From: Tabrizicola piscis
GTDB taxonomy: Bacteria > Pseudomonadota > Alphaproteobacteria > Rhodobacterales > Rhodobacteraceae
Assembly: GCF_003940805.1 (NCBI RefSeq)
Contig: NZ_CP034328.1
Coordinates: 2,028,001-2,092,000 of the forward strand
Reading direction: 5' to 3'
Length of the DNA: 64,000 nucleotides
The translations under genes and the position numbers were made by a program. The notes below the pieces were generated by a model. The model worked only from the letters and a program-made list of their open reading frames with translations. It ran no database searches and was not told where the DNA came from. Below are positions 15,294-31,577 of this stretch, one piece after another (positions within the stretch are counted from its first letter, which is position 1; every line of letters begins with the position of its first letter).

Positions 15294-15305
15294 GGTCTGA
15301 ACCTT

Positions 15306-16169: not shown

Positions 16170-16903
16170 GCCGCGCCAAGCTCAACCCGGTCGCAGACGG
16201 GGGCGGATTCGACGAAGGCTTCGGAGTTTTGCCGCGCGCGGAACAGGTTTTCGGCGGTCAGGACCTGGGCGGTCGGACCGTGCGCCACCTTTTCCCGCGC
16301 CAGAAGCAGCGTATCGGGGAAGTGGTTGCGGACTGCCTCAAGATCATGGAGCACGGCGAGGACAGTGCGGCCTTCGCCGTGCCAGCGCTTGACGACCTGC
16401 AGAAGTTCCCCCGCCGTGCGGGTATCCAGCGCGGTGAAGGGTTCGTCCAGCAGGATCAGGTCGGCGTCCTGCAGTAGCAGCCGCGCGAACATCACGCGCT
16501 GCATCTGGCCGCCGGACAGGGCGGCAATCGGGCGGCGGTCAAAGCCGGTCAGACCGACAGCGGCCAGTGCATCGGCGACTTTGGCGGCGGCTGAACCGGA
16601 GATGCGGCCAAAGGCCCCGGCGCTGTGCCACAGGCCCATGGCGACAAAGGCCCCGACGGAAACGGGAAAGCTGCGGTCCACCTCGGACAGTTGCGGCAGA
16701 TAGGCAAGGCGGCGGGCGGTGCGGTCGATCCGGCCTTCCAAAGGCGCAATCTCGCCGATCAGACCTTTGAGCAGGGTGGATTTCCCGGCACCATTGGGGC
16801 CGACCACGGCCGTCAGGCTGCCGGGGAGGAGGTCAAGGTTCAGGTGATGCACCGCGGGGTGGCGGTCATAGCCCAAGGTCAGGTCGCGGAGTTTCAGTGC
16901 CAT
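16166..16903 (-). CDS. znuC: Zinc ABC transporter ATP-binding protein
   Basis: 245 aa ABC ATPase: Walker A GPNGAGKST, signature LSGGQMQRV, Walker B LILLDEPFTALD and the switch His in VLHDL. It powers the ZnuAB importer from the cytoplasmic side. Start 16903 is preferred because it gives the standard N-terminus MALKLRDLTLGYD and lies 2 bases after the stop of the upstream 33-codon reading frame; the frame remains open further upstream only because it runs through the small gene and zur in another phase. Confidence 0.93.
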   Translation of the reverse strand: MALKLRDLTLGYDRHPAVHHLNLDLLPGSLTAVVGPNGAGKSTLLKGLIGEIAPLEGRIDRTARRLAYLPQLSEVDRSFPVSVGAFVAMGLWHSAGAFGRISGSAAAKVADALAAVGLTGFDRRPIAALSGGQMQRVMFARLLLQDADLILLDEPFTALDTRTAGELLQVVKRWHGEGRTVLAVLHDLEAVRNHFPDTLLLAREKVAHGPTAQVLTAENLFRARQNSEAFVESAPVCDRVELGAA

Positions 16904-16905
16904 GG

Positions 16906-17007
16906 TCAGCCTACCACCAGCCAGAGGCCAAACCAGAGAAGCGAGGAAAGGCCCAAGGCCAGCGCAAGGCGGCCAAAGATGCCCGAAAGAAGCAGGTCGC
17001 GGTTCAT
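16906..17007 (-). CDS. 33-aa hydrophobic membrane peptide in the zinc operon
   Basis: Short reading frame of 34 codons including the stop. The product has a charged start (MNRDLLL) followed by one hydrophobic helix of about 23 residues (GRLALALGLSSLLWFGLWL and then VVG). Its ATG overlaps the zur stop codon as ATGA (17004-17007), and its TGA stops two bases before the znuC ATG, so it fits exactly between two genes with canonical coupling on both sides. Such positioning is strong evidence that it is translated. I do not recognise a family; a small regulatory subunit or inner-membrane partner of the ZnuBC transporter is an inference. Confidence 0.65.
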   Translation of the reverse strand: MNRDLLLSGIFGRLALALGLSSLLWFGLWLVVG

Positions 17008-17393
17008 GCGCGGTGCCCCGCGGTACAGTCGCTGCAACTGCCATGCACCTCGATCGTCTGGCGGGCTTCGGTGAAGCCCTCCGCCTCAAGGCTTTGGTGC
17101 AGCGTTTCGAACAGGTTTGGCGCGGTGACGGTGCGGACCGTGCCGCAGTCATCGCAGATCACCACGACGCCCGACGCATCGGTCTTGACCGCAGCCCAGG
17201 CGCGCAGGGTTTCGATCTTGCGCACCAGACCCGCATCCTCCAGCCCCTTCAACGCGCGGTAGACCGTGGGCGGGGCGACCGCGCCTGGCCCGTGCTGCAT
17301 CTGGCTGAGCAGTTGATAGGCGGACATGGGGCCGTCTGCCGCCCGGAGAAGGGCAAGCACTTCGGTCTCATTCCGGGTCAGTCCATCACGCAT
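17004..17393 (-). CDS. zur: Fur-family zinc uptake regulator Zur
   Basis: 129 aa. N-terminal winged helix (RNETEVLALLRAADGPMSAYQ and PPTVYRALKGLEDAGLV in turn), C-terminal dimerisation domain with two CxxC pairs: C80/C83 in VICDDCGTV and C120/C123 in GSCSDC, the structural zinc site of Zur proteins. It heads the operon whose other genes are the zinc importer, and a Zur-box-like palindrome lies about 60-80 bases upstream, so autoregulation is likely. Start 17393 has AGGA upstream. Confidence 0.93.
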   Translation of the reverse strand: MRDGLTRNETEVLALLRAADGPMSAYQLLSQMQHGPGAVAPPTVYRALKGLEDAGLVRKIETLRAWAAVKTDASGVVVICDDCGTVRTVTAPNLFETLHQSLEAEGFTEARQTIEVHGSCSDCTAGHRA

Positions 17394-17508: not shown

Positions 17509-18627
17509 TCAGGCCGAGGCATCCAATGCTGCGCGCATGGCGGCGACGGCGTGATCGATCCTGTCGGGGTCTTTCAGGAGGCTGCCGCCGAGGAGGTAGA
17601 CGACGTCCTGCCCGTACATCGCCTGCATCTCAGCGGCGCGCGCCACGCTCATCCCGCCGCCGGGGCTGGGGAGCATGGGGATGCCGGGGCCAGCGGGGGT
17701 GCGGCAGGCATGGGCGATTTGTTGACACTCGGTCGCACTGAACCCGAAGCGGCCGCCGACGTTGGGGAAGACCGAGATGTCGGAGCCCGCAAGGCGCTGG
17801 AGGGTGCCGAAGATCACGCCGTGGTCGATGCCAGTGTCGGGGGCAAGGACGTAGGGGCCGAGGAATGAGGGGTGGGTCATGACGGGCAGGTTCAGGCTTG
17901 GGTCAGCCGCAATGCGCTGGACGAGGCCAAAGCCGAAGAGGCCGGGCATGACGAGGACGCCATCCGCACCTGCGTCTTTCAGGAAGCGCAGGTTGCCTTC
18001 GATCTGGTCGGCGGGGCCGGAGAGGTTGGCGAAGTAGAGGGTTTGGCGGCCGGTCTCCTCCCTCGCCTGCCGCATGGCTTTGACCACCGCAGACACGCGG
18101 GCGCGGAAGGGGGCGGTGGGTTGGCCGGCTAGGCCGTGGTCTTCCTTGACGATGTCTGCGCCTCCGTGGACGCAGCCTGCGGCGAGTTTGGCGAAGCTCT
18201 CTGGGGGAAGGCCCATGGGTTTCAGGACCGGGGCGATAAGGCCACCGGTGGCGCGGCCACACAGCGCGCGGATGCCGGGGATGCCGAAGCGGGGGCCGGG
18301 GAAGCGGGCGGCCATGGTGGGGCCGGGGTCAACTCCGGTGACGCGGATGCCTTGCTGGATGGAGGAGTTGCCGAAGACCACGTTCAGGAATTGGGTCAGT
18401 TCATCCCCCGCGCTGTCGGGGGAATAGCTGAGGGTGGCTTGCCATTGGCCTTCGGCCAGTTGGGTTACATCTTCCACCCGGCCAAGGATTTCATCTTCGA
18501 CGTACCCAGCGGGAACTACTTTGCGCGGGATTTCCACGGTCTGCTCCAGCGCGATGCCTTCGGCGCGGGCGGTGGCCTCGGCAAGGGACGCCGCCCGCAG
18601 GCGGTAAGTGACGCGGAAGCGCTGCAT
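17509..18627 (-). CDS. RuBisCO-like protein (form IV), substrate unknown
   Basis: 372 aa, shorter than true RuBisCO. Active-site comparison: LKPMGL (K136) corresponds to the catalytic K175 region; GGADIVKEDHGLAGQ keeps the carbamylatable lysine (K161) and the metal Asp (D163), but the metal Glu204 is His (H164); THPSFLG (H252) replaces HR294-295; PSPGGG and LLGGSL are the phosphate-binding glycine loops. It is therefore not a CO2-fixing carboxylase. Known form IV roles are enolase or isomerase in methylthioribose salvage (MtnW, R. rubrum RLP) and decarboxylase/hydrolase in D-apionate breakdown. It starts on the transketolase stop (TGATG). Context with mtnK/mtnA points to a 5-modified pentose, unproven. 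Confidence 0.93.
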   Translation of the reverse strand: MQRFRVTYRLRAASLAEATARAEGIALEQTVEIPRKVVPAGYVEDEILGRVEDVTQLAEGQWQATLSYSPDSAGDELTQFLNVVFGNSSIQQGIRVTGVDPGPTMAARFPGPRFGIPGIRALCGRATGGLIAPVLKPMGLPPESFAKLAAGCVHGGADIVKEDHGLAGQPTAPFRARVSAVVKAMRQAREETGRQTLYFANLSGPADQIEGNLRFLKDAGADGVLVMPGLFGFGLVQRIAADPSLNLPVMTHPSFLGPYVLAPDTGIDHGVIFGTLQRLAGSDISVFPNVGGRFGFSATECQQIAHACRTPAGPGIPMLPSPGGGMSVARAAEMQAMYGQDVVYLLGGSLLKDPDRIDHAVAAMRAALDASA

Positions 18628-19628
18628 CAGAGGGCTTCGGCCTTGACCAGCGAATGGACGGCGTCGATCCGCACGCCTTCAAGCGCTGCTTCGTCAATGC
18701 CGGTGGTCTGGCCGGTCAGCCGCTCCACCGCGCGGACAAGGGACAGGGCGTCCATCCCGTAGTGGCGCATGAGGTAGGGGCGCGAGCCGCCGTGGGCGTA
18801 GGTATCCTGCAGGCCAAGGCGGATCAGGCGGCGGGCAAGACCGGCTTCGGCCAAAGCCTCGGCCACCATGGAGCCGATGCCCCCGGCGACGAGGTGGTTT
18901 TCAAGGGTGATGACGCCGTGGCGGACAGAGGCCGCGTGTTCGACGATCTGAGCGGCGTCGAAGGGTTTCAGGGTGTTCAGGTGCAGGTGGCGGACCGACA
19001 CCCCAGCGCGGGACAGGGCACCCCGGGCGCGGATCGCTTCTTCCGTCGTGATCCCTGCGGTGATGACCAACACGTCATCGCCTTCAGACAGGACGCGCAT
19101 CTGGCCGATCTTCAGGGGCGTGTCGAACAGGCGCGGGACAGCACCGCGCAGGATGCGGCAGTAGACGGGGCCATCGACGGTGTCGGCCTCGGCCACGATG
19201 GATTCCACCTCGGTCGCGTCGCCTGCTTCCAGCACGGTCATGTTGGGAATGGTGCGCATGACGGAGATGTCTTCAATCGCCTGATGGGTCATGCCGCCGG
19301 GGGTGGTGACGCCGGGCAGGAACCCCATGAGGCGCACGCGGCGGCGGGGGTAGGCGATGGAGGCCATCAGCTGGTCATAGGGGCGGCGGTAGAGGAAGAC
19401 GCCGAAGGAGTGGAGAAAGGGGCGGAACCCGGCAAGGCCAAGGCCGCCCGCGAAGGAGAGCATGTTTTGTTCGGCCATGCCGAGGGACAGGAACTGATCG
19501 GGGTGGCGGTCGCGGAAACCGTCGATTTCGCAGGATGAGGTAAGGTCGGCGGAGAGGCACAGCACCTCGGGGTGTTGCACGGCGTAGGCTTCGAAGGCCG
19601 AGGCGTAGGGGCGGTTGACCATTTCCAT
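18627..19628 (-). CDS. Transketolase-like protein, C-terminal (pyrimidine + C) subunit
   Basis: 333 aa, equal to the C-terminal half of a transketolase. The catalytic glutamate is in SLGMAEQNMLSFAGGLGLAG (E53), which activates the thiamine aminopyrimidine. GVTTPGGMTHQAIEDI and a C-terminal domain ending in HGGSRPYLMRHYGMD follow. It pairs with the N-terminal subunit encoded just upstream; their genes share the sequence TGATG, and the same junction joins it to the RuBisCO-like gene. Split transketolases are known for special substrates (for example D-apulose 4-phosphate), and the true substrate here is open. Confidence 0.9.
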   Translation of the reverse strand: MEMVNRPYASAFEAYAVQHPEVLCLSADLTSSCEIDGFRDRHPDQFLSLGMAEQNMLSFAGGLGLAGFRPFLHSFGVFLYRRPYDQLMASIAYPRRRVRLMGFLPGVTTPGGMTHQAIEDISVMRTIPNMTVLEAGDATEVESIVAEADTVDGPVYCRILRGAVPRLFDTPLKIGQMRVLSEGDDVLVITAGITTEEAIRARGALSRAGVSVRHLHLNTLKPFDAAQIVEHAASVRHGVITLENHLVAGGIGSMVAEALAEAGLARRLIRLGLQDTYAHGGSRPYLMRHYGMDALSLVRAVERLTGQTTGIDEAALEGVRIDAVHSLVKAEAL

Positions 19629-20557
19629 CAGTGGGCCTCCAGCTTTACCGGGGCGATGCCCAGTTCGGCGGCAATCTCAAGGTTCATGCGGGCGCGTTCC
19701 TCATCCGACTTGAAGCGGACGTAGTGGAGGCGGGGAAAGCGGCTCATCAGGCTTTCCATGCCTTGGGTAGGGCGGGAATGGGCCAGCACGATCAGCGGGC
19801 GGCCAGTGTGCGGGGTGGCGGCGGCGGCGCGCATGGCGGACAGGTCATGGGCGTCAACCTCAGCCACCACAGCGCCGAAATCGCGCAGTTTGGTGGCGAT
19901 GTCGCCCACGGTCATCACATCGTCCATCGCGCCGTCGCATTGCTGGCGGTTGACGTCCATGATGGCCCAGAGATTGTCGATGCCATGGTGGGCAGCGGCC
20001 TGAACGGCCTCCCACGTTTGACCTTCCTGCACCTCACCATCCGACATGAAGACACAGACGCGGCCCGTGTGGCCAAGGCGCTTGCGGCCCCACGCCAAAC
20101 CGGCAGCAGTGGAAAAGCCGATGCCGAGGGTGCCGTTGTGCACCTCCATCCCCGGGGAGTGTTCGGCGCCGATCATCTCGACCGAGGTGCCGTCCTTGTT
20201 GAACATCTCCAACCCCTCGGGCGCCATGCGGCCAACCTCGATCAGGCAGGCGTAGGCGACGAGGGCGTAATGGGCGGGGGCGATGAACAGGCGATCATGC
20301 ACGGCGTCGAAGGGGCCGTTGTAGCCAGCGCCGGTGACATAGTCGGGGTTGTCAGCCGAGGGCACGCCGGAGAAGGGCGGCGGGATCATCGGCATGGTGG
20401 AAGGGCCGAGGTTCAGCCCTTCGTTATAAAGGAACGCCAGCTGTTCGGCGGCCGAACAAGCCTGGCTGAGGTAGCCGCCATTGTTGCGGATGGTGTGTTC
20501 GAAGACACGGGACCGGATGGCATGCGCGATGGCTTCGGTGGATTTTTCGTTGCGCAA
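19628..20557 (-). CDS. Transketolase-like protein, N-terminal (ThDP-diphosphate) subunit
   Basis: 309 aa N-terminal half of a transketolase. The ThDP/Mg motif reads SDGEVQEGQTWEA (172-184) with the second ligand in DVNRQQ (N203), and EHSPGMEVHNGTLGIG (132-147) is the conserved substrate/diphosphate region. The start appears to be TTG at 20557, because a strong AGGAGAGGA site lies five bases before it and no ATG is suitably placed. Second-half subunit follows with a TGATG overlap. Downstream of the sugar-binding protein gene by 58 bases. Confidence 0.9.
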   Translation of the reverse strand: MRNEKSTEAIAHAIRSRVFEHTIRNNGGYLSQACSAAEQLAFLYNEGLNLGPSTMPMIPPPFSGVPSADNPDYVTGAGYNGPFDAVHDRLFIAPAHYALVAYACLIEVGRMAPEGLEMFNKDGTSVEMIGAEHSPGMEVHNGTLGIGFSTAAGLAWGRKRLGHTGRVCVFMSDGEVQEGQTWEAVQAAAHHGIDNLWAIMDVNRQQCDGAMDDVMTVGDIATKLRDFGAVVAEVDAHDLSAMRAAAATPHTGRPLIVLAHSRPTQGMESLMSRFPRLHYVRFKSDEERARMNLEIAAELGIAPVKLEAH

Positions 20558-20615
20558 GGGTCCTCTCCTGTCTGGTGGTGCGGTGGGCCGCTGGTTGGCG
20601 GCCCACCGAAGGGGG

Positions 20616-21653
20616 TCAGCGTGGCGGCAGCGTCATCCACGGGGCCATGGCCACATCGGCATGGGCGAAGGCGGGCAGTTTCGCGCCCAGTTCTTCCATG
20701 TTGGTGATGTTCAGCTCATTCAGCATGGCCTGGGTGATCAGCGTTGGCGGGACGATCACGGATGCGCCCGGGTCTTCCCCGGCCAGCAGCAGCGCGAGGG
20801 TGCGCACCGACACTTCCCCCACCACGGCGGGGTTGGTGGCGGCGGTGGCTTTCCAGGACGACCCCGCCTCGCGCATCAGCTGGATGTCAGCGGTGGACAC
20901 GTCGGCCGAGTAGATCGAGACTTGGCCGGACATTCCCGCCTCATCCACGGCGATCTTCACGCCCTTGGCGAATTCGTCATAGGGGGCGAACATGACCTGG
21001 ATGTTGGGGTTGGCCGAGAGCACCGACCGCGCCTGGTTGGCGACGGAGTTGGCGATGGGGTTGTCGAGCGTGCCAAACATCGCGACTTCGTTGATGCCGG
21101 GGTTGGCGGCCTTCACCTCTTTCCAGGTCTCATCCCGGCGATCCAAGGGCGCGATGCCGGGAACGTAGACGTAGCCCGCGACCCATTCGTTGCCGTTGTC
21201 GGCCAGCGCCGCCTCAAGCGCCAGACGGGCAAGGTCACGGTCGGACTGTTCGACCTGCGGGATGGCCGGGTTTTCGACGTTCACGTCGAAGGCCACGACC
21301 TTGATCCCCGCATCCACCGCGCGCTGGGCGGCTTCCTTCATGGATTCGGTCAGGCCGTGCTGGATGATGATGCCGTCCACGCCCAGGGCGATGGCCTGAT
21401 CCACCATGTCAGCCTGCAGGGCGGCATCCTGCCGGCTGTCAAAGACCTGCAGGTTCACGCCAAGGGCGGCGGCCTGCTTTTCCACGCCAGAGAGGTAGGC
21501 CTGGAAGAAGTCACCGGTGGAAAGATAGCGGACAAGGGCGATGTTCACCTCACCCGGGTTGTCGAAGGGCGCGGGGGCGGTTTGCGCAAGGCCGAGGGTT
21601 GGCACAAGTGCCACGCTGGTCACGAGGGCTGCGAAAGTGCGTCTGGAGATCAT
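20616..21653 (-). CDS. Sugar ABC transporter substrate-binding protein (ribose/CUT2 type)
   Basis: 345 aa periplasmic binding protein with an N-terminal signal peptide ending near LGLAQ. Family features: repeated Rossmann-like lobes with QADMVDQAIALGVDGIIIQ and NPIANSVANQARSVLSANPN. It is the specificity component of the importer encoded by the next two upstream genes. Start ATG 21653 has a near-ideal AGGGAGGAA site. The ligand is not deducible from sequence; genomic context with methylthioribose kinase suggests a free ribose analogue. Confidence 0.9.
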   Translation of the reverse strand: MISRRTFAALVTSVALVPTLGLAQTAPAPFDNPGEVNIALVRYLSTGDFFQAYLSGVEKQAAALGVNLQVFDSRQDAALQADMVDQAIALGVDGIIIQHGLTESMKEAAQRAVDAGIKVVAFDVNVENPAIPQVEQSDRDLARLALEAALADNGNEWVAGYVYVPGIAPLDRRDETWKEVKAANPGINEVAMFGTLDNPIANSVANQARSVLSANPNIQVMFAPYDEFAKGVKIAVDEAGMSGQVSIYSADVSTADIQLMREAGSSWKATAATNPAVVGEVSVRTLALLLAGEDPGASVIVPPTLITQAMLNELNITNMEELGAKLPAFAHADVAMAPWMTLPPR

Positions 21654-21725
21654 TGGTTCCTCCCTATTCTCCAAGGTCGTAATGGGTCCGGGTTTGCCGC
21701 TTCTGCGGGCGGTTGTCCGGGGCGT

Positions 21726-22739
21726 TCAACCGCGCCCCCGGCCTGCACGGCCGGACAGCGCGAAGGTGAAGACAAGGGCGACGACAAGAACCGCGCCCTT
21801 GATGAAATCCTGCGTGTAGTAAGGCGCGTTCAGCATCGTCAGGCCCTGCAGCAGGATGCCGACGAACAGCGCCCCGATGGCGGTGCCAAAGGCGTTGGGC
21901 TTGGCCGCACCAAGGACGGCAAAGCCGATCAGCGCCGCTGCGACCGCGTCCAGAAGCAGGTTGTTGCCCGAGGCGATGTCACCCCGTCCCAGCCGGGCGG
22001 ACAGCAGGATCCCCCCGACCGAGGCGAGCACGCCCGAAATCATGTAGGCCAGGATCCGGTAGCCCGCGACGTTGATCCCCGCGAGCCGCGCGGCCTGCGC
22101 GTTGGACCCGATGGCATACATCACGCGGCCATGCCGGGTCAGTTCCAGAAACCCCCAGACCAGCACGGCGATGGCGATCAGGAACACCACGGACAAGGGC
22201 ACAAGGTCAGGCAGGATGAAATCAATCCGGTGGCGGCCCAGCATCAGGAAGCCTTCGGAAAAGCCGCCTGTCGCGTTGGTGCCATCCGTCAGGACCATGC
22301 CAGTGGAGATGGAGTTGCCTTGGGTGGGAATGCGCTGGAGCCCGACCAGCAGGAACATCATCCCCAGCGTGGCCAAGAGGTCCGGCACCTTCATCTTGAC
22401 GATCAAAAGCCCATTGATCAGCCCCACAACCGCGCCCATCGCCAGGCAGAACAGGACGGCGGCAACCGCCCCCATTTCCCAGATCACCATCACATAGGCT
22501 GACAGCATCATGGCCGAGGTCGCGACGGCGCCGATGGAAAGGTCAAACCCGTCCACCACCAGCGTGGCCGTGACGCCCAGCGCGAGGATGCCGGTGATCG
22601 CCACCGATTGCAGGATGAACACCGCGCTTTGCGGAGACATGAAGGCGGGTTTCAGGACCGAGAACACCAGGATCAGCCCCGCCATCAGCAGAAGGAACCC
22701 GTAGCGGATGGCGAATTCGGTGGGCGAAAAGGTCTTCAT
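21726..22739 (-). CDS. Sugar ABC transporter permease (RbsC type)
   Basis: 337 aa inner-membrane permease of the ribose/xylose (CUT2) class with about eight to ten hydrophobic helices. VTATLVVDGFDLSIGAVAT is the conserved first signature and LASVGGILLSARLGRGD lies in the cytoplasmic coupling region. The start codon overlaps the ATPase stop (ATGA at 22736-22739), giving coupling. One permease gene implies a homodimeric channel. Confidence 0.92.
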   Translation of the reverse strand: MKTFSPTEFAIRYGFLLLMAGLILVFSVLKPAFMSPQSAVFILQSVAITGILALGVTATLVVDGFDLSIGAVATSAMMLSAYVMVIWEMGAVAAVLFCLAMGAVVGLINGLLIVKMKVPDLLATLGMMFLLVGLQRIPTQGNSISTGMVLTDGTNATGGFSEGFLMLGRHRIDFILPDLVPLSVVFLIAIAVLVWGFLELTRHGRVMYAIGSNAQAARLAGINVAGYRILAYMISGVLASVGGILLSARLGRGDIASGNNLLLDAVAAALIGFAVLGAAKPNAFGTAIGALFVGILLQGLTMLNAPYYTQDFIKGAVLVVALVFTFALSGRAGRGRG

Positions 22740-24253
22740 GCCGGCACGTCCATTCTGTCGTCGAGGGAGCCTGCGACCTGCGCCATCAGGCGGCCAAGGT
22801 CGATGGCCTCATTCCGGTGATCGCCGACAAGGGTGTGTTCGCTCATCACCAGAATGCGGTCGGCAACTTCCAGCGCCTCATCAATCTCGGCGCAGAGGAC
22901 CAGCGTGGCGCGGGTGGCGGCGCTGTCACGGATGCGGCGGCCGATGTCGCGGCGGGCCTGAATGTCGACGCCCTGGAAGGGCTCATCCAGGATCAGCAGG
23001 CGGCTGGCTTCGGCCATCCAGCGGCCGACGACGACCTTTTGCTGGTTGCCGCCGGACAGCGTCAGGATACCGTCGCGCGGGCCTTGGCAGACGACGCCCA
23101 TCGCCTGAATGCTGCGCTGTGCGGCGGCGCGTTCGGCGGCGCGGCGGATCAGGCCAAGCGGGCCGGAGTGGTTGGCGGTGAAGGGCAGGCTGAGGTTCGA
23201 CTGGATGTCGAAGGCCGGGATGACGGCGTTGATGAGGCGGTCCTTCGCGGCAAGGAAGACGCCCGAGGCCACGGCTTGCGCGGGGTTGGCTGGGCGGTAG
23301 GGGGTGCCGTTCAGGGTCAGGCTGCCCGCAACCGGGGCCTCAAGCCCGAACAGGACCGAGGCGAGGGCGGATTTGCCGGAGCCGACAAGGCCGGTGATTG
23401 CCACCACCTCATTCGCGCGGAGGGCAAGGTCAAAGGGCCGCGCCTCGGGTTTCAGCTGCAGGCCGGTGGCTTGCAGCATGACCGGGCCGGGGGGCGGGAT
23501 GGTGATGTCCACCTCGGTAATCTCATGCCCCAGCATGGCGCGGACGGCGGCGGAGTAATCCAGCGGAGCGCCTTCGAACAGGCCCGACACCTGACCATCG
23601 CGCATGGAGATGATCCGGTCGGCCAGGCGGCGGATGTCGGACATGCGGTGCGAGATATACAGGATCGCCACCCCATCGGCGCGCAGACGGTCGATCAGGG
23701 TGAACAGACGCTGCGCTTCGGCGATGGAGAGGGAGGAGGTGGGTTCGTCAAGGATCAGAAGGCGCGGCTTGTGGGCCATGGCGCGGGCGATGGCGACAAG
23801 CTGGCGGTCGGCCAGCGGCAGGCCAGCAACGGGGCGGGTGACGTCAATCGTCAGCCCCACGGCGGCGGCGATGCGGCGGGCATCCTCGCGCATGCGGCGG
23901 GCGTTCAGGAACAGGCTGCCGCCTTCGGCCAGCGAATCGAGGAGGAGGTTCGAGGCCACATCCAGCCCCGGCACCACGCCGTCATTGATGTTCTGGTGAA
24001 CCGTCACCACCCCCGACCGCAGCGCCTGCGCCGGGCCTTCGGGGGCGAAGGGCTTGTCGTCCAGCAGCACCTGCCCGGCATCGGCGCGGTGGACGCCGCA
24101 GAGGACCTTGACCAGCGTGGATTTCCCCGCGCCGTTGGCGCCCATCAGCACGGTCACTTGCCCTGCTGGCAGGTCCAGATCAACGCCACGCAGCACCGCG
24201 TTGCGGCCAAAGGCCTTGGTCAGCCCACGGATGGTGATGGCCTGGCGTGTCAT
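22736..24253 (-). CDS. Sugar ABC transporter ATP-binding protein (RbsA type, two domains)
   Basis: 505 aa with two fused nucleotide-binding domains, as in RbsA. Domain 1 has Walker A GANGAGKST, a degenerate signature (LPLADRQLVAIARAM) and Walker B LLILDEPTSSL. Domain 2 has GLVGSGKSA, signature LSGGNQQKVVVGRWM and Walker B LLILDEPFQGVD. First gene of the minus-strand operon that continues with permease, binding protein, split transketolase and RuBisCO-like protein; its promoter faces mtnK in a 115-base divergent gap. Confidence 0.93.
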   Translation of the reverse strand: MTRQAITIRGLTKAFGRNAVLRGVDLDLPAGQVTVLMGANGAGKSTLVKVLCGVHRADAGQVLLDDKPFAPEGPAQALRSGVVTVHQNINDGVVPGLDVASNLLLDSLAEGGSLFLNARRMREDARRIAAAVGLTIDVTRPVAGLPLADRQLVAIARAMAHKPRLLILDEPTSSLSIAEAQRLFTLIDRLRADGVAILYISHRMSDIRRLADRIISMRDGQVSGLFEGAPLDYSAAVRAMLGHEITEVDITIPPPGPVMLQATGLQLKPEARPFDLALRANEVVAITGLVGSGKSALASVLFGLEAPVAGSLTLNGTPYRPANPAQAVASGVFLAAKDRLINAVIPAFDIQSNLSLPFTANHSGPLGLIRRAAERAAAQRSIQAMGVVCQGPRDGILTLSGGNQQKVVVGRWMAEASRLLILDEPFQGVDIQARRDIGRRIRDSAATRATLVLCAEIDEALEVADRILVMSEHTLVGDHRNEAIDLGRLMAQVAGSLDDRMDVPA

Positions 24254-24368
24254 TGATCCTCGCTCCCAAGGCCGTACGCTATCTGCCGATCATCATTTGT
24301 CAATATAATTTGACATATGCTGGTTTTTTGGAAATCCTTTCCACAAAGACGGGATCAGGGAGGATTAC
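24254..24368. promoter_or_regulatory. Divergent promoter region with palindromic operator
   Basis: AT-rich 115-base gap between the ABC/transketolase/RuBisCO-like operon and mtnK. It contains the palindrome TGTCAATATAATTTGACA (24298-24315) with 6-bp arms. The right arm extends to TTTGACATATGCT (24309-24321) and the left arm, on the other strand, to TTGACAAATGATG. The same half-site occurs in front of the SorC regulator gene, so this is the likely binding site for that regulator. The mtnK ribosome-binding site GGGAGGA follows. Confidence 0.6.
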
Positions 24369-25649
24369 ATGATCGCGCAAGGCTATGTCGCCCATGACTA
24401 TTCCCCACTGTCACCGGCAACGCTGCCGGACCGGCTGGGGGGGCTTGCCGTCTTGGGGGACCGGGTGGGTCCGGCGGACAGTTGGCAGGTGCGTGAGGTG
24501 GGGGATGGCAACCTGAACCTGGTGTTCATCGTGACCGGGTCGGCCGGGTCGGCGGTGGTGAAGCAGGCGCTGCCCTATGTGCGGCTTGTGGGCGAAAGCT
24601 GGCCCTTGCCGCTAAGCCGGTCGTTCTTTGAATACAACGCCCTGATCCGGCAAGAGGCGCGGGATCCGGGGTCAGTCCCTTCGGTCTGGCACTTCGATGA
24701 AGTGCAGGCGATTGTGGTGATGGAGTATCTGACGCCCCATGTCATCCTGCGCCACGCTTTGGTGGAGGGGCGGCGGGTGGAGGGGCTGGCCGAACGGCTG
24801 GGCCAGTTCTGCGCGCGCACGCTGTTCCGGGGGTCGGACCTTTCGATGACTGCAGCGGCGCGGAAGGCCGACCTCGCGCTGTTCGCGGGGAATGTGGCGC
24901 TGTGCGACATTACGGAAAACCTGGTGTTCTCCGACCCGTATTTCGACGCGCCGATGAACCGGCATACGGCGGGGCTTGATGGCATAGTAGCGCGGCTGCG
25001 GGCGGACCTGTCGCTGAAGGTCGCGGCGCAGCACCTGAAGATGGCGTTCACCAGTCGGGCCGAGACGATGCTGCATGGTGATCTGCACACCGGGTCGATC
25101 ATGGTGACGGATACCGAGACCAAGGTCATCGACCCCGAGTTTGCCACCTATGGCCCCATCGGCTTTGACGTCGGCATGCTGATCGCCAACTTCCTGATGG
25201 CGCATTTGTCCCAGCCGGGGCATGAGGCGCGCGCCGGCGACCGGGCAGGCCAGCAGGACTGGCTTTTGTCGGTGGTGGAAGGGATTTGGGAGACGTTTGT
25301 CGCCGAATTCTCGCACCTCTGGCGGACGGAGCGGCGGGGGATCCTGTATCAGGCCAGCCTTTATGAGGATCAGGGGCATGCGCTGGGGTCAGAGCAGGCG
25401 CTGTCGGATGTGATCGGGCGGATCTGGGTCGATACCGTAGGGTTCTGCGGGGTGGAGATGCACCGGCGTATCCTTGGGCTGGCGCATAACGCCGACTTTG
25501 AGCGGATCGCGGATGAGGGCCGCCGCGCGGCCTGTGAGGCGCGGGCGCTGGCGATGGGGCGGCAGTTGATGGTGGGAGCGGCATCGATGCCGGGGATCAC
25601 GGCGCTGACCGCGATGGCGCGGCGGATGGACAAGGAGGATCACCTGTGA
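24369..25649 (+). CDS. mtnK: S-methyl-5-thioribose kinase (MtnK family)
   Basis: 426 aa, a little longer than B. subtilis MtnK (397). It phosphorylates 5-methylthioribose (or the analogue 5-deoxyribose) at C1 with ATP. Shared motifs: GDGNLNLVF (45-53) for the nucleotide loop, VGESWPL (74-80), [15 protein letters not shown] (179-193), the Brenner motif HGDLHTGS (236-243) and the metal motif [15 protein letters not shown] (255-269). The W-loop and DPE signature separate MtnK from aminoglycoside kinases. It heads a two-gene unit with mtnA. Since no MTA nucleosidase is in the locus and an importer gene is divergent, an external substrate is suspected. Confidence 0.93.
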
Positions 25650-26746
25650 AGATCGATGGAACCCCCTACCGCACCATCTGGCAAGACGCTGGTGGCGTGG
25701 TGCAGGTGATCGACCAGCGCTGGCTGCCGCACGAGTTTCGTGTGGTGCCCCTGCGGACACGGGCCGAGTTTGCCACCGCGATCCGCGACATGTGGGTACG
25801 GGGCGCGCCCCTGATCGGGGCGACGGCGGCTTGGGGGGTGGCGGTGCAGATGGCCGTCGATGCCTCAGACGCCTCGCTGGCCGAGACGTGGGAGGTCTTG
25901 CACGACACGCGCCCCACGGCCATCAACCTGCGCTGGGCGCTGGATGAGATGCGGCGGGTGCTATCGCCCTTGCCGCCTGCGATGCGGGCGACGGCTGCCG
26001 CCAGGCGGGCTGCAGAGATTTGTGATGAGGATGTGGAGATCAACCGTCAGATTGGGCTGCACGGGCTGGAGATCATCAAGGCGATTGCGGCGCGGAAGTC
26101 GGGGCCGGTCAACATCCTGACCCATTGCAACGCGGGCTGGCTGGCAACGGTGGACTGGGGCACTGCGACCAGCCCGATCTACCATGCCGATGCGGCGGGC
26201 ATCCCGGTGCATGTCTTTGTGGATGAGACCCGCCCCCGCAATCAGGGCGCGCAGCTGACCGCGTGGGAGTTGAACAGCCATGGCATCAGCCATGACCTGA
26301 TCGTCGATAACGCCGGTGGCCATCTGATGCAGCATGGCGAGGTGGATATGGTCATCGTCGGCACCGACCGCACCACCGCGCGGGGCGATGTGTGCAACAA
26401 GATCGGGACCTACCTCAAGGCGCTGGCGGCACGCGCGAATGGGGTGCCGTTCTACGTGGCGCTGCCCTCGCCCACCATCGACTGGCGCGTGCATGACGGC
26501 GTGCGCGAGATCCCGATTGAGGAGCGGAACGGGGCGGAGGTGACGCTTGTGCAGGGCCGCACGAAGGACGGACGGATCGAAAGTGTCCAGATTTCCCCCG
26601 ATGGCACCGGCGCGCGGAACCCGGCCTTTGACGTGACGCCTGCGGAACTGGTGACGGGACTGCTGACCGAACGGGGGCTTTGCCCGGCGACCGAAGCCGG
26701 AATGGCGGCGATGTTTCCGGACCTGAAGGCCGCTGTCGCGGCATGA
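25646..26746 (+). CDS. mtnA: S-methyl-5-thioribose-1-phosphate isomerase (MtnA)
   Basis: 366 aa aldose-to-ketose isomerase of the MtnA/eIF2B-like family. It converts methylthioribose 1-phosphate to methylthioribulose 1-phosphate. Catalytic residues are present: C161 in NILTHCNAG and D241 in [20 protein letters not shown], which correspond to Cys160 and Asp240 in B. subtilis. The start is GTG at 25646, which overlaps the mtnK stop (GTGA). Some homologues act on 5-deoxyribose 1-phosphate. Confidence 0.94.
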
Positions 26747-26751
26747 CGGCC

Positions 26752-27723
26752 CTAGTCGGTGGCCAGAAGCGCCTCGGCCACCGTGCTGCCTGTCACCAGA
26801 TGCGTGACATAGCCACCCCGGATCGCAGCGCGCGTCGCCTCCACCTTGTCGAGGCCGGGGGTGACCAAGATGCCCATCTCCAGCCCCACAAGGCGGGGGA
26901 GCGGGATGCCGATCATCCTCTCCTCCATCGGGCCGGGAAGCTGTTGGCCGTCCTTGTCGACGAACCGCCCGCAGATCACGCCGACGGCCCCTTGGGCGAC
27001 GTTCCAATCCAGATCCTCGCGCGTGGCAAGGCCGCTGAGGACGATATGGCTGTCCGCCGTGGCGGTGCCGACCGAGAAGAGGAGTTTGTTGACCGTCTCC
27101 AGCTGGTCGAGCTGCGTGCGCAGGATGGGTTCCTCGCGCAGTTCCGCCGCAAGGGCGGCGCGGCTGAGGATCGCGGGCGCATGCAAGTTCAAGCACCGCG
27201 CGCCAAGGCGTTGGGCAAGGCGGGTCGAACACGCCTCGGCCGTAAAGCCGTAAGGCGTGGCCATCGAGCCGACGAGTTGCAGCACCGTCAGATCGTCCAC
27301 CGGCCGCGCCTCAACGATTTCCGCCAGTTCGTAGACCGTGCGGCCCCAAGCCACGCCAAGCCGGTCACCGGGGGCGATCAGGTCCAGAAGCCAGTTGGCC
27401 GCACCGCGCACGATGCGCTGGAAGGCTTCTTCGGTCGTCGTCCCCTCATCCGGGATGACATAGGCACCGCGCAGGCCGAAACGGTCGGACAGTTCCAGCG
27501 CAAGGCGGTGGGTGGTGAAGGCGGGCGCGGCAAGGGTGATGCGGATCAGGCCCTTTTCCCGCGCCTCTTGCAGGTAGTTGACGACGGTGGCGCGGGAAAT
27601 GCCCAGCGCCTCGGCGATGTCCTGCTGGTTGCGGCCATCCTGATAATACATCCAGGCCACCTGAATGACCGCATTCTCACCGCTTACCTGCGCCAGATTG
27701 CGCCGCCGCGTCATTCCGTTCAT
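26752..27723 (-). CDS. SorC/DeoR-type sugar-binding transcriptional regulator
   Basis: 323 aa. N-terminal helix-turn-helix (QQDIAEALGISRATVVNYLQ) and a C-terminal sugar-phosphate effector domain with LGVAWGRTVYELAE, LVGSMATP and SVGTATADSHIVLSG, the SorC pattern. It lies just behind mtnA, convergent, and divergent from the aldolase-dehydrogenase gene. Start 27723 or 27714 (MTRRRN); the frame continues upstream but without protein-like content. Effector is probably a phosphorylated intermediate of the pathway. EryD- or LsrR-like role by family. Confidence 0.9.
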   Translation of the reverse strand: MNGMTRRRNLAQVSGENAVIQVAWMYYQDGRNQQDIAEALGISRATVVNYLQEAREKGLIRITLAAPAFTTHRLALELSDRFGLRGAYVIPDEGTTTEEAFQRIVRGAANWLLDLIAPGDRLGVAWGRTVYELAEIVEARPVDDLTVLQLVGSMATPYGFTAEACSTRLAQRLGARCLNLHAPAILSRAALAAELREEPILRTQLDQLETVNKLLFSVGTATADSHIVLSGLATREDLDWNVAQGAVGVICGRFVDKDGQQLPGPMEERMIGIPLPRLVGLEMGILVTPGLDKVEATRAAIRGGYVTHLVTGSTVAEALLATD

Positions 27724-27830
27724 GCCCAACCCCAGTTGCAGCAGGTCTTTGACCTTTGACAATGCTAAGTGACAAAAGTAAAAAAACCAAGCGTGGCGCG
27801 TGTCATGACCAGACATAGCAGGAGACCCCG
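27724..27830. promoter_or_regulatory. Divergent promoter region of the SorC regulator and aldolase genes
   Basis: 107-base AT-rich gap. It carries two adjacent CTTTGAC units (27747-27760), of which the second continues as CTTTGACAATGCT (27754-27766), and a TGACAAAA at 27770. The TTTGACA-ATGCT core matches the half-site in the mtnK/ABC divergent region. It lies 25-55 bases before the regulator start and 60-80 before the aldolase start, so autoregulation and control of the aldolase are likely. Confidence 0.55.
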
Positions 27831-29891
27831 ATGATCGCCAATCTCTGGACGGATGCTGAGGCCAAGGCGATGCAGGACACGGCGGGCGCTGACCCCTTGG
27901 CGCGGGAACTGGCGCTGCGGGTGCTGACGTCACGGCTGATCGGGCGGGACCCGGATCTGGTGATGCATGGCGGGGGGAATACCTCGCTGAAATCCACGGC
28001 TTTGGACGTGTTCGGCGACGCGGTTGAAGTCTTGCACATCAAGGGATCGGGCTGGGACCTTGAGGTGATCGAGGCGAAGGGTCTGCCTGCCGTGCGGATG
28101 GAGCCGTTGATGCGGCTGCGGGGGCTGGTCGCCCTGTCGGATGAGGCGATGGTGAATGTCCAGCGGTTGAACCTTCTGGACCCAAGCGCGCCGAACCCGT
28201 CGGTGGAAACGCTGCTGCACGCCTGGATCCCGCACAAATATGTGGACCACACGCATGCGACGGCGTTTCTGGTGCTGGCCAACCTGCCTGAGGTGGCGGC
28301 GGCCACGAAGGAACTGTTCGGCGACCGGCTGACGCTGGTGCCCTATGTGATGCCGGGCTTTGCGTTGGCCAAGGCGGCGGCTGAGGCGTTTGAGCGGAAC
28401 CCTGAGGCGGAGGGGCTGCTGCTGGTCAACCACGGCCACTTCGCCTGGGGGCCTGACGCGAAGGCCAGCTATGACCGGATCGTGGAGCATACCAATCTGG
28501 TGGAGGCATGGTTGGCCGACCGCCGCCCGGCACCTTTGGTGCCTGCGGCGGCATTGCCTGCGGACCGCGTCGCGCCGGTGTTGGCCGCATTGCGGGGGGC
28601 GTTGGCTTTGGCCTTGCCGGAGAGTGCTCCGCTGCCAGTCCTGGACCTGCGGGCGGATGATGGGGCGCGGGCCTTTTGCGCACGCGCTGATCTTGAGGCG
28701 CTGGCGTTGCGGGGCGTGGCGACGCCGGACCATGTGATCCGCACCAAGGCGGAGCCTTTGGTCCTGCGCCGCGCCGTGCAGACGGCTGACGGCATGCGCG
28801 CGGCGGTGCAGGAATTCACCGCCCGCTACCGCGCCTATTTCGACGCCCATGCACCGATGGCGACAGAGAAGAAAACCATGCTGGCCCCGATGCCCGGCCT
28901 TGTCTGGCTGGAAGGCGCGGGGATCGTGGGGGTGGGGGCCACCGCCGCCGCAGCCCGGATTGCCGCCGACATCGGCCTGCAATCGGCCCGTGTGCGAGCG
29001 GATGGCGAGGCGGCGGGGGGGTTCTTTCCCATCGGGCAAAGCGACCTGTTCGACATGGAATACTGGTCACTGGAGCAGGCGAAGCTGGGCAGCGGCAAGG
29101 CCCCGCCGTTGCAGGGGCGCGTGGTGCTGGTGACCGGCGGGGCGGGGGCAATTGGCATGGCCTCGGCCCGCGCCTTCGCGGCGCAGGGGGCGACGGTGTT
29201 CCTGGTGGACCGGCCGGGTGAGGCTTTGGACAAGGCTATCGCCGCGCTGGGGCGGGACCATGGCGGCTTTGGCTGTGACATCACCGCGCCTGGGGCGGCG
29301 GCGGCGGCGGTTCAGGCCTGTGTAGCGCGGTTTGGTGGGGTGGATATCCTGCTTTCGAACGCAGGCGCTGCGGTGACGGGCGACATTGCCACGCTGGACG
29401 ACAAGACCCTGCGGGAAAGTTTTGAGCTGAACTTCTTCGCCCATCTGGCGTTCTCACAAGCCGCCATCGCGGTCTTCCGGGCGCAAGTGGCGGGGCGCGG
29501 GGTTCGGGGGGCGGAACCGGGGCAGATCCTGTTCAACGTCTCCAAGCAGGCAGTGAACCCGGGCAAGGGCTTTGCCGCCTATGGCCTGCCAAAGGCCACG
29601 ACCTTCTTTCTGCTGCGCCAGCTTGCGCTGGAACTGGGGGCTGAGGGTATCCGCGTCAACGGGATCAATGCTGACCGCATCCGGTCTGGCCTGCTGTCGG
29701 CCGACATGATCGCCGCCCGGTCCACCGCCCGGGGGGTGGATGAGGCGACCTATATGGCCGGCAACCTGCTGCGGCTTGAAGTGGAAGCCCGGCATGTGGC
29801 CGAGGCTTTCGTGATGCTGGCGCGGGCCGAACGGACCACGGGCCATGTGATGACCGTGGACGGCGGCAATATCGAGGCGGCGCTGCGCTAA
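27831..29891 (+). CDS. Fused class II aldolase / short-chain dehydrogenase (RhaD-SDR type)
   Basis: 686 aa two-domain protein. The N-terminal class II aldolase (about 1-350) has HGGGNTS (46-52) for substrate phosphate, E126 in SVETLLH, and zinc ligands H140/H142 in VDHTHA and H201 in VNHGHFAWG. The C-terminal SDR domain has TGGAGAIG (435-442) and the S571/Y584/K588 set (NVSKQ, YGLPK). Such fusions are annotated as rhamnulose-1-phosphate aldolase/lactaldehyde dehydrogenase. Next to mtnK-mtnA it would be expected to split a 5-modified ribulose 1-phosphate into dihydroxyacetone phosphate and a 2-carbon aldehyde, then oxidise or reduce that aldehyde. ATG 27831 has AGGAGA upstream. Confidence 0.9.
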   Translation: MIANLWTDAEAKAMQDTAGADPLARELALRVLTSRLIGRDPDLVMHGGGNTSLKSTALDVFGDAVEVLHIKGSGWDLEVIEAKGLPAVRMEPLMRLRGLVALSDEAMVNVQRLNLLDPSAPNPSVETLLHAWIPHKYVDHTHATAFLVLANLPEVAAATKELFGDRLTLVPYVMPGFALAKAAAEAFERNPEAEGLLLVNHGHFAWGPDAKASYDRIVEHTNLVEAWLADRRPAPLVPAAALPADRVAPVLAALRGALALALPESAPLPVLDLRADDGARAFCARADLEALALRGVATPDHVIRTKAEPLVLRRAVQTADGMRAAVQEFTARYRAYFDAHAPMATEKKTMLAPMPGLVWLEGAGIVGVGATAAAARIAADIGLQSARVRADGEAAGGFFPIGQSDLFDMEYWSLEQAKLGSGKAPPLQGRVVLVTGGAGAIGMASARAFAAQGATVFLVDRPGEALDKAIAALGRDHGGFGCDITAPGAAAAAVQACVARFGGVDILLSNAGAAVTGDIATLDDKTLRESFELNFFAHLAFSQAAIAVFRAQVAGRGVRGAEPGQILFNVSKQAVNPGKGFAAYGLPKATTFFLLRQLALELGAEGIRVNGINADRIRSGLLSADMIAARSTARGVDEATYMAGNLLRLEVEARHVAEAFVMLARAERTTGHVMTVDGGNIEAALR

Positions 29892-30691
29892 AGCGTCATC
29901 GGGCCGGTGGGCACGGGCGGGCCTGCGGGAAAGGCCCCCCAAACCCCTTGGTCCAGATTGACGATGGCCCCGGTCATCAGCCCCGCGTCCTCCGACACGA
30001 TGAAGTTGACCGCGCGGGCCACCTCATCCGGGTCGATCAGACGGCCAAAGGGCAGGCGGGCGCTGGCCTTTGCCTCCCACTCCGGATCGCCGGTTTCGGA
30101 CAGTTGCAGGGCGCGCTCCTGATCGGTGGACATCCAGCCGGGGTTCAGCTGGTTCACCCGGATGCGGTTGCCCATAACGGCAAAGGCGGTGTTGGCGGTC
30201 AGCGTGACCAGCGCCCCTTTCGACGCGCAATAGGCGCTGATGAAGGGCTGCCCCGCCATGGCCGAGGTTGACCCGATGTTCAGGATCGCGCCTGCGATGC
30301 CATCGCGGATCATCAGGCGGATCGCCTCTTGCATCAGGAAGAACGGCGCGCGGACGTTGGTGGCGAACATAGCGTCGAAAAGGTCGGGTGAGGTGGTCAG
30401 GATCGTGCCCCGGTCGGTGATCGCGGCGGCGTTCACCAGAACGTCGATCCGGCCAAAGCGCTGGTCAGCCGTGGCGATGATCCGGCGGCAGTCATCCACC
30501 TGTGCCAGATCGCCAGCCACAAAGACCGCCGGGCATGGCAGGCTGTCCATCACTGCCTGCCCGCGCGCGGCATTGCGGCCTGTCACCACGACGCCCGCCG
30601 CCCCCGCCGCCGCCAGCCTGCGGGCAATCGCCGCGCCAAGGCCTTGCGTCGATCCGGTGACCACGCAAACCTTGCCATCCATCCGGTTCAT
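29888..30691 (-). CDS. Short-chain dehydrogenase/reductase
   Basis: 267 aa classical SDR: nucleotide motif TGSTQGLG (12-19), LVNAAA (85-90), catalytic Ser in NIGSTSAM (about 141-143), Y154 and K158 in SAYCASKGA. Start 30691 follows a GGGGGACGGA site; the frame is open further upstream without a plausible N-terminus. Its stop codon overlaps that of the aldolase-SDR fusion gene from the other strand. Divergent from the HpaI-type aldolase gene, so the two may share a promoter and a sugar-acid pathway. Substrate unknown. Confidence 0.9.
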   Translation of the reverse strand: MNRMDGKVCVVTGSTQGLGAAIARRLAAAGAAGVVVTGRNAARGQAVMDSLPCPAVFVAGDLAQVDDCRRIIATADQRFGRIDVLVNAAAITDRGTILTTSPDLFDAMFATNVRAPFFLMQEAIRLMIRDGIAGAILNIGSTSAMAGQPFISAYCASKGALVTLTANTAFAVMGNRIRVNQLNPGWMSTDQERALQLSETGDPEWEAKASARLPFGRLIDPDEVARAVNFIVSEDAGLMTGAIVNLDQGVWGAFPAGPPVPTGPMTL

Positions 30692-30773
30692 GTTCCGTCC
30701 CCCGTTGTTGTCCGACTTGCATATCGGCAGGGTTTCCGCCACGCAATGAGACGTCGGTTTCGGGGGGAACAGT

Positions 30774-31577
30774 ATGACCAAGCTGCGCAAGATCTGGGAC
30801 GCAGGCAAACCAAGCCTGAATGCCTGGTGTTCCATCGGCAATGCCTTCACGGCGGAAATCATGGCGGCGCAGGGGTTCGACTCTGTCACCGTCGACATGC
30901 AGCACGGCGCGCTGGACTACAGCGACCTGTTGCCCATGCTGCAGGCGATGCGCGGCAGCGGGGCCACGTTGCTGGCCCGGGTGCCGTGGCTGGACCCGGC
31001 CCATGTGATGAAGGCGCTTGATGCAGGGGCCGAGGGGATCATCTGCCCGATGGTCAACACGGGCGATGAGGCGGCAGCACTGGTCAGCTACATGCGCTAT
31101 CCGCCCCATGGTACGCGCAGCTTTGGCCCGACACGCGCCGCCTTTGCCCATGGCGCGGGCTATGCCGAGACGGCGAATGCGCGGCTTCTGGCCTTTGCGA
31201 TGGTCGAGACGGCGGAGGGATTTGCCAACCTTGACGCCATCGCCGCGACACCCGGGCTGGACGGCATCTATGTCGGGCCGACGGACCTGACCCTGTCGCT
31301 CAGCGCGGGGCGGCTGGCCCCCAAGCTGGACCGGGACGAACCCGAGATGGTTGCCGCATTGCAACGCATCGCCGCCGCCTGTCAGGCGCATGGCATCATC
31401 GCCGCGCTGCATTGTGGAACAGCGGACTATGCCAACCGCGCCATCGGCTGGGGCTACCGGATGGTCACCGTCGGCGGGGACACGCGGTTCCTGTCAGCCG
31501 CGGCGGCCGCAGCGGTGGCCGAATTTCGCAGCCTGAGCGGTACGACTGCGACCGAGGCGACCCGCGCCGCCTATTGA
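30774..31577 (+). CDS. HpcH/HpaI-family aldolase
   Basis: 267 aa class II (metal-dependent) pyruvate aldolase. Motifs: [13 protein letters not shown] (H44, base), metal Glu in [10 protein letters not shown] and Asp in [14 protein letters not shown]. Family members cleave 2-keto-3-deoxy sugar acids or 4-hydroxy-2-ketoacids to pyruvate and an aldehyde. Start 30774 has GGGGGGAA upstream. It overlaps aroC at the 3' ends by 7 bases. With the divergent SDR it may form a short sugar-acid branch beside the mtnK locus. Confidence 0.9.

Follow-up and report, generated by a model that had tools for sequence, protein, structure and literature searches.

In the 5′-methylthioadenosine (MTA)-isoprenoid shunt of Rhodospirillum rubrum and Rhodopseudomonas palustris, which employs MtnP, MtnA, the RuBisCO-like protein (RLP) Rru_A1998, and the cupin CupS (Rru_A2000), CupS acts after the RLP in R. 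rubrum according to the available text of two reports (PMC4334135, PMC4958253). A second described route, the dihydroxyacetone phosphate (DHAP) shunt or 5-deoxyribose disposal of Escherichia coli, Bacillus thuringiensis, and R. rubrum, uses MtnK or DrdK, MtnA or DrdI, and the aldolase Ald2 or DrdA. Here, we analyzed a locus of Tabrizicola piscis (contig NZ_CP034328.1, positions 2,028,001 to 2,092,000; these 64,000 nucleotides are hereafter the window) in which genes for an RLP, a split transketolase (TK), and an ABC importer lie next to mtnK and mtnA. The locus is best read, from its sequence and that of its relatives, as probably serving 5-methylthioribose (MTR) salvage by a variant of the R. 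rubrum shunt, with the split TK in place of CupS. The front half of such a pathway (kinase, isomerase, and RLP) is known, and the TK step is not: no RLP-transketolase salvage route was found described in the literature searched, a partial set thin in subscription journals, nor was the gene combination itself, as an initial sequence-only reading of the window had anticipated.

The order of the locus genes was established from open reading frame (ORF) positions and from matches of the window proteins to family models (NCBIfam/TIGR and Pfam), giving the following features in window coordinates.

17509-18627, minus strand: RLP, proposed 5-methylthioribulose-1-phosphate 1,3-isomerase (PF00016)
18627-19628, minus strand: split transketolase, C-terminal half (Transket_pyr and Transketolase_C)
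19628-20557, minus strand: split transketolase, N-terminal (thiamine diphosphate) half (Transketolase_N)
20616-21674, minus strand: periplasmic binding protein, proposed methylthioribose binder (nearest solved structure 4ry8)
21726-22739, minus strand: ABC importer permease (PF02653)
22736-24253, minus strand: ABC importer ATPase (PF00005)
24298-24315: operator-like palindrome TGTCAA-N6-TTGACA, perfect match, between the divergent operons
24369-25649, plus strand: mtnK, 5-methylthioribose kinase (TIGR01767, 477 bits, cut-off 275)
25646-26746, plus strand: mtnA, 5-methylthioribose-1-phosphate isomerase (TIGR00512, 421 bits, cut-off 279)
26752-27723, minus strand: SorC/DeoR-family sugar-responsive regulator (PF04198, Sugar-bind)
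27757-27774: second operator-like site, two mismatches, between the SorC and aldolase genes
27831-29891, plus strand: fusion of a class II aldolase and a short-chain dehydrogenase (SDR), proposed DHAP-shunt branch (NF006192, 829.6 bits, cut-off 639)

All genes named in the sequence-only reading were recovered in place with the families it had assigned, the one correction being the start of SorC, now set at the ATG at 27723 that by eye is common to relatives (the mechanical ORF extends to 27933). The six minus-strand genes run from the ATPase through permease, binding protein, TK N-half, and TK C-half to the RLP (24253 down to 17509) and are closely packed, with 1-base overlaps between the RLP and TK C-half genes and between the two TK halves, and a gap of 58 bases between the TK N-half and the binding protein. 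Divergent from this run are mtnK and mtnA, which overlap by 4 bases, and beyond them SorC faces the aldolase-SDR fusion. The best solved relatives of the mtnK product were 2pyw (an unnamed protein) and 2olc (methylthioribose kinase). As already remarked in that reading, no MTA nucleosidase or phosphorylase, MtnB, or cupin was present among the locus genes, nor was MtnC (MtnB and MtnC were looked for at the locus only), yet an MTA phosphorylase (MtnP) is encoded elsewhere in the genome (L084; NF006492, 487 bits, cut-off 437).

The gene block is common to many alphaproteobacteria, in shuffled order. Named species genomes were scanned with an alignment of 20 RLPs, and the best 80 of 354 relatives (54-91% identical) were analyzed, their neighbors being counted as tblastn matches to window proteins within 10 kb; gene calling confuses antisense ORFs in these G+C-rich genomes. 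Near the RLP we found TK C-half in 77 loci, MtnA in 68, SorC in 65, MtnK and the importer in 64 each, the aldolase domain in 56, and a FucU-type mutarotase in 19, and the corresponding counts for the 60 loci with full flanks were 57, 55, 53, 52 (MtnK), 51 (importer), 43, and 17. Where no TK was near the RLP (L039, L048, and L052), one was present elsewhere in the genome. The 60 full loci displayed 16 core-gene patterns, several of which differ only through a gene outside the stretch; genuine rearrangement of blocks placed TK-RLP after the importer operon, as in the window, facing the importer operon, or ahead of the aldolase block. Certain loci duplicate others from the same genome (L116/L117 repeat L026/L025, L135 repeats L078, and short MtnK loci repeat longer ones), and these inflate the TK-residue and operator-site counts given below. 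Far from being together only in this genome, a possibility that the sequence-only reading had raised, the importer-TK-RLP and mtnK-mtnA halves recur together in dozens of genomes.

In an even set of 149 genomes of the order, the RLP clade (at least 53% identity) was present in 10, in all of which the TK C-half directly adjoined, against TK in 3 of the 139 others (Fisher p 3e-13), while MtnK was found in 14 genomes in total, 8 of the 10 with the RLP and 6 of the 139 others (Fisher p 3e-8), both tests ignoring shared ancestry. The association of RLP, TK, and MtnK is beyond chance neighborhood, which these tests and the recurrence across 80 loci rule out. In a class-wide sample of 385 genomes, two more distant RLPs (41-43%) adjoined a TK that was 57-59% identical, and 13 RLPs at 35-40% were without a TK of the window clade at E 1e-100, a soft absence given that at most five candidates per genome were scored; frequencies outside the order rest on a thin sample.

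The window RLP passed PF00016 and fell below every NCBIfam cut-off tried, among them those for RuBisCO forms (TIGR03326, 98 bits against 497; NF003252, 96 bits against 438), MtnW (TIGR03332, 127 bits against 513.6), and OiaX (equivalog NF042437, 84.5 bits against 700). By sequence, the R. palustris RLP 3qfw was its first match (E 2e-67, compared with 1e-34 for the best named MtnW enolase). Positions N87, K136, K161, D163, H164, and R293 were invariant in 20 aligned RLP rows, five of them cupin-linked, and Asn87, likewise invariant in the family, occupies the position of MtnW Lys98, presumably the catalytic lysine of that enzyme. The sequence match, this substitution, the MtnW score, and the lack of MtnB at the locus all argue against the idea that the RLP is an MtnW-type enolase of universal methionine salvage and the TK an unrelated member of central metabolism, which appears highly improbable. 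Moreover, the acireductone dioxygenase MtnD (PF03079) was absent from the window's own genome in a search whose control matched 5 of 14 genomes, above cut-off in 2. On the missing dioxygenase and the MtnW score, we rejected universal methionine salvage, as the sequence-only reading had done on other grounds.

A split TK belongs to D-apiose/apionate catabolism, and both OiaX and an apulose-4-phosphate transketolase were reportedly treated by Carter et al. in 2018, which would suit an RLP and TK acting on apionate or apulose phosphates with mtnK-mtnA as a separate neighbor. That catabolism is a known RLP setting in the available text of PMC6302742. The OiaX score nevertheless led us to reject a D-apionate OiaX identity and leaves D-apiose, which the sequence-only reading had named for growth tests, unsupported. 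Furthermore, MtnA lies near 68 of the 80 RLPs and is fused to a TK half in L119, and like operator sites precede the importer/mtnK, TK, and aldolase operons, making this the least probable of the explanations considered here.

In all 12 loci fetched from the nearest other RLP clade, at 35-40% identity, the RLP gene immediately precedes a cupin gene (a 13th genome in this range, G437, lay outside the fetched set), and the cupin was closest to Rru_A2000. In a tree of 65 loci and the window, chosen for spread and without a row for Rru_A1998, the window RLP was sister to, not within, the 12-row cupin-linked clade. No cupin match occurred in the 80 TK-type loci (tblastn, 12 positive loci in the same run). 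Hence, whereas the sequence-only reading had held that the R. rubrum shunt does not fit, the sister relationship to RLPs with a CupS-like cupin suggests that the locus is most readily understood as derived from the shunt, with TK having taken the place of CupS. Some public annotation labels RLPs that are 66-67% identical (P0107, P0115) ‘S-methyl-5-thioribulose 1-phosphate isomerase’, in agreement with the step we propose for the RLP.

For the split TK, the best solved relatives were the halves of the split TK of Carboxydothermus hydrogenoformans (6yaj for the C-half, 6yak for the N-half), and the C-half matched DXS almost as well as TK. Residues were scored in 89 sequences, in an alignment including the genome's own whole TK, and a tree was built from the window and 35 of 88 pairs chosen for spread. 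Using what we take to be E. coli TK numbering and the contact and catalytic roles of these positions, the thiamine diphosphate/Mg and catalytic positions D155, N185, E411, H66, and H473 were kept in 89 of 89 sequences, as were three of the four phosphate-holding positions: R358 (R in 86, K in 3), S385, and R520. Donor-binding positions were replaced throughout, with H26 changed to Y (88 of 89, one gap), H100 to M (88) or L (1), H461 to F (89 of 89), and D469 to G (89 of 89). The split TK 6yaj/6yak and human TK carry the usual residues at or next to matching positions, except for Gln at H473 in human TK. Absence of the histidine that binds the C1 hydroxyl is consistent with a donor bearing SCH3 or H at C1. 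Additionally, a natural fusion was found in a draft genome (L119:7149-9119), a 656-aa frame that matches MtnA over residues 2-346 and the TK N-half over residues 361-646, in a locus that also holds a NupC-family nucleoside transporter (below cut-off) and a relative of purine phosphorylase (44%). Separately, in another locus the RLP is immediately followed by a 779-aa protein (L063:8308-10647) that matches transketolase and pyruvate-dehydrogenase-E1 domains.

The looser motif TGTCA-N5-14-TGACA occurred in 57 of 84 related intergenic regions as compared with 0.14% of mononucleotide shuffles, a count inflated by second copies and close relatives. A scan upstream of genes, allowing at most two mismatches and a spacing of 3-8, exposed operator-like sites before the TK N-half in 21 of the 47 loci that do not have the importer operon ahead of it, before 28 of 56 aldolase fusion genes (shuffles ~4% in each case), and before none of 11 cupin-type RLPs. 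Across the whole window, 24298-24315 and 27757-27774 were the only sites that fit a 6-base spacing with at most two mismatches; two sites per window are not unusual (reached in 25 of 100 shuffles), and it is their places that are unusual. SorC is predicted to act through these TGTCAA-N6-TTGACA candidate operators.

The MtnA-TK fusion, the common operator, and the replaced donor-binding residues together support the split-TK variant of the shunt. In this pathway, MTR would be imported, phosphorylated by MtnK, and isomerized by MtnA to 5-methylthioribulose 1-phosphate (MTRu-1-P), with MTR 1-phosphate from the cell's own MtnP joining at MtnA. The RLP would move the carbonyl along the chain to yield a 1-methylthio-pentulose 5-phosphate, as Rru_A1998 does, and the split TK with thiamine diphosphate would cut this ketose 5-phosphate at C2-C3 into glyceraldehyde 3-phosphate and a methylthio-bearing C2 unit, which, bound to TK, would be handed to an acceptor or lose methanethiol. 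In parallel, the aldolase-SDR fusion would split MTRu-1-P into DHAP and methylthioacetaldehyde, the aldehyde then being oxidized or reduced, and SorC would sense a sugar phosphate and control the operons through its candidate sites. Every reaction, ligand, and SorC-site link in this scheme we infer; the gene families, their linkage, the RLP clade, the fusion, the operator-like sites, and the TK pocket are seen directly. Of the C3/C2 split by two parallel routes suggested in the sequence-only reading, the two branches from the ribulose 1-phosphate appear supported, whereas the cleavage by TK into C3 and C2 units stays conjectural. A more specific form of the proposal, in which the split TK is specialized for the 1-methylthio-pentulose 5-phosphate, frees glyceraldehyde 3-phosphate, and lets the bound C2 unit expel methanethiol to leave an acetyl group, is possible but, in our estimation, doubtful; phosphoketolase, which expels water from a bound C2 unit, offers an analogy for methanethiol loss.

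Several observations weigh against the split-TK shunt variant. By Z score, the MtnW entries 2oem, 2zvi, and 2oek (46.4 to 45.9) stood slightly above 3qfw (45.1), and the TK-linked RLPs form a separate clade only 35-40% identical to the cupin-linked ones, such that their reaction may have shifted. A genome-wide cupin search was empty at E 1e-15, but had no positive control within the sampled order. MtnK was not near the RLP in 8 of the 60 full-length loci, and the aldolase domain was not seen near it in 17 of the 60, several stretches ending beside SorC. Operator-like sites with at most two mismatches were found upstream of none of seven free FucA-type aldolases and none of nine BisC genes. Within the TK pocket, a 1-methylthio donor does not account for the missing D469, and the missing H461 makes an ordinary phosphate pocket harder to argue for. 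In L113-L115 (G021, G049, and G045), TK was also present with neither RLP nor MtnK anywhere in the genome and with no MtnA close by, so that MTR cannot be the sole TK context; these clusters, and L078/L079, use other kinases, with another sugar. Finally, a 5-deoxy sugar suits the kinase equally, B. thuringiensis DrdK acting about equally on 5-deoxyribose and MTR in the available text of PMC6079011.

The imported 5-modified ribose proposed as substrate in the sequence-only reading is supported, with MTR our best guess, by the MtnK and MtnA models and by the binding protein: the nearest solved structure to the latter, first by sequence and by model, is the MTR binder TLET_1677 (4ry8; 37% identity over nearly the whole length). 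Should 5-deoxyribose, derived from the 5′-deoxyadenosine of radical SAM enzymes, be the main substrate instead, MtnK, MtnA, and the RLP would generate 1-deoxyxylulose 5-phosphate, with TK working as a reverse DXS or in C2 transfer, or with the product feeding isoprenoids. Such a role would be consistent with the action of DrdK, with the near-equal match of the TK C-half to DXS, and with the naming of the E. coli DHAP shunt enzymes for both substrates in the available text of PMC10986504. In the same direction, the amidohydrolase linked to L063 scored higher for 5′-deoxyadenosine deaminase (280 bits) than for MTA/S-adenosylhomocysteine deaminase (194 bits), both far below cut-off and below the generic TRZ/ATZ model (352 bits), making ‘deaminase’ a guess. 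Against this stand the title of 4ry8 as an MTR binder and the S/N-oxide reductase genes near TK (L068, L077-L079, L113-L115, and L134), which suggest a sulfur-bearing substrate in several sub-types. We regard 5-deoxyribose as unlikely to be the main substrate, and it may use the same route as MTR.

The entry steps were variable. In L063 and L067, neither the importer nor MtnK had a match, and the loci hold a purine nucleoside phosphorylase and an amidohydrolase along with an MtnA of a second lineage; L068 has a phosphorylase and MtnA with no MtnK or importer nearby, while in L039 and L052 phosphorylase and amidohydrolase occur in addition to MtnK. These variants indicate that the start of the route varies while the RLP-TK core is constant.

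The aldolase domain of the fusion retains a His-x-His motif (VDHTHA) and, further along, another His (NHGHF), which we take to be of the class II aldolase metal type, and its SDR domain keeps TGGxGxIG and YxxxK, presumably in their usual roles. Six MtnK genomes of the order sample (L107-L112) are without the window RLP or TK clade and keep the importer, MtnK, and MtnA, which in five of them adjoin both a relative of SorC and a class II aldolase that is free; for the free aldolases near MtnK, FucA models scored best, below cut-off in the three tested. These loci look like the DHAP shunt alone. Such genomes, and the TK found without MtnK and RLP (L113-L115), would be expected if the aldolase-SDR branch were the sole MTR route and RLP-TK served another imported sugar, linked by co-regulation only. 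The MtnA-TK N-half fusion of L119, the joining of RLP-TK to purine phosphorylase and MtnA without nearby MtnK or importer in L063, L067, and L068, and the sister position of the window RLP to CupS-linked RLPs all speak against that arrangement, which we find distinctly unlikely. Moreover, in L156 a free FucA-type aldolase replaces the fusion beside RLP-TK, from which we read the aldolase-SDR fusion as probably a parallel DHAP-shunt branch. A FucU/RbsD-type mutarotase was also present in three of the six MtnK loci without RLP (examples among all loci are L048:11134-11616 and L110:14315-14758) and was not seen at the window locus.

Beyond MTR salvage, the TK clade lies beside a BisC-family molybdenum S/N-oxide reductase in L113-L115, L134 (G531), and L135 (G535), and the clusters of L114, L115, and L134 also hold an FGGY kinase, an alcohol dehydrogenase, and an AraD-like aldolase. 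By model, the FGGY kinases of L114 and L135 resemble XylB (280 and 284 bits, short of the cut-off of 380). A kinase of the XylB type would yield a ketopentose 5-phosphate with no RLP involved, in keeping with a TK acting on 5-phosphates. TKs without RLP (L113-L115) and those remote from an RLP (L132-L134) share the pocket changes and nest, with modest support, among the RLP-linked TKs. These clusters point to a second sugar pathway using the same TK, its substrate perhaps a sulfoxide sugar.

Elsewhere in the window, divergent SDR and HpcH/HpaI-type aldolase genes, named by eye, adjoin the locus at 29888-31577. As pathway members, the SDR (29888-30898) and aldolase (30774-31577) were rejected, since neither was near the RLP in any of 80 loci (at least 45% identity), and they probably belong to a separate pathway. 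On the other side, at 14271-17393, is an ordinary zinc-type ABC importer (His-rich binding protein, permease, and ATPase) with a Fur/Zur-type regulator, again by eye. A phosphorylase-superfamily match (PF01048) at about 47136-47648, within an ORF of ~511 aa, may be an AMP nucleosidase.

Many form IV RuBisCO relatives are without an assigned reaction or partner, and here a whole clade is tied to a single partner, a split TK with a rebuilt donor pocket, instead of the known cupin. If the proposed pathway is correct, MTRu-1-P has a further fate, with one salvage step swapped for unrelated chemistry, and sulfur and carbon would be recycled in a new way, yielding methanethiol, or usable C2 and C3 carbon, from a universal waste product. 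In its more specific and doubtful form, with methanethiol expelled to leave an acetyl group, the TK would be a transketolase that breaks a C-S bond, and alphaproteobacteria would widely possess a methionine salvage route independent of O2 and of glutathione that serves imported methylthioribose and, via the purine phosphorylase variants, nucleosides.

Relative to the MTA-isoprenoid shunt, the window genome likewise has MtnP and an MtnA that would feed a sister-clade RLP, but its locus holds a split TK instead of a cupin and adds an MTR importer and MtnK; its RLP, moreover, shares only 35-40% identity with the cupin-linked RLPs of the class sample, the shunt RLP belonging to the DeepYkr clade. 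MtnK, MtnA, and a class II aldolase are clustered both here and in the DHAP shunt, whereas in the window the aldolase is fused to a short-chain dehydrogenase and a second, RLP-TK branch is added. The Thermotoga lettingae protein TLET_1677, whose link to MTR is known from the title of its entry, is the closest solved relative of the window binding protein. Finally, the two-gene split and the catalytic residues are common to the C. hydrogenoformans TK and to that of the window clade, which, in contrast, has other residues at four donor-binding positions where His or Asp is usual.

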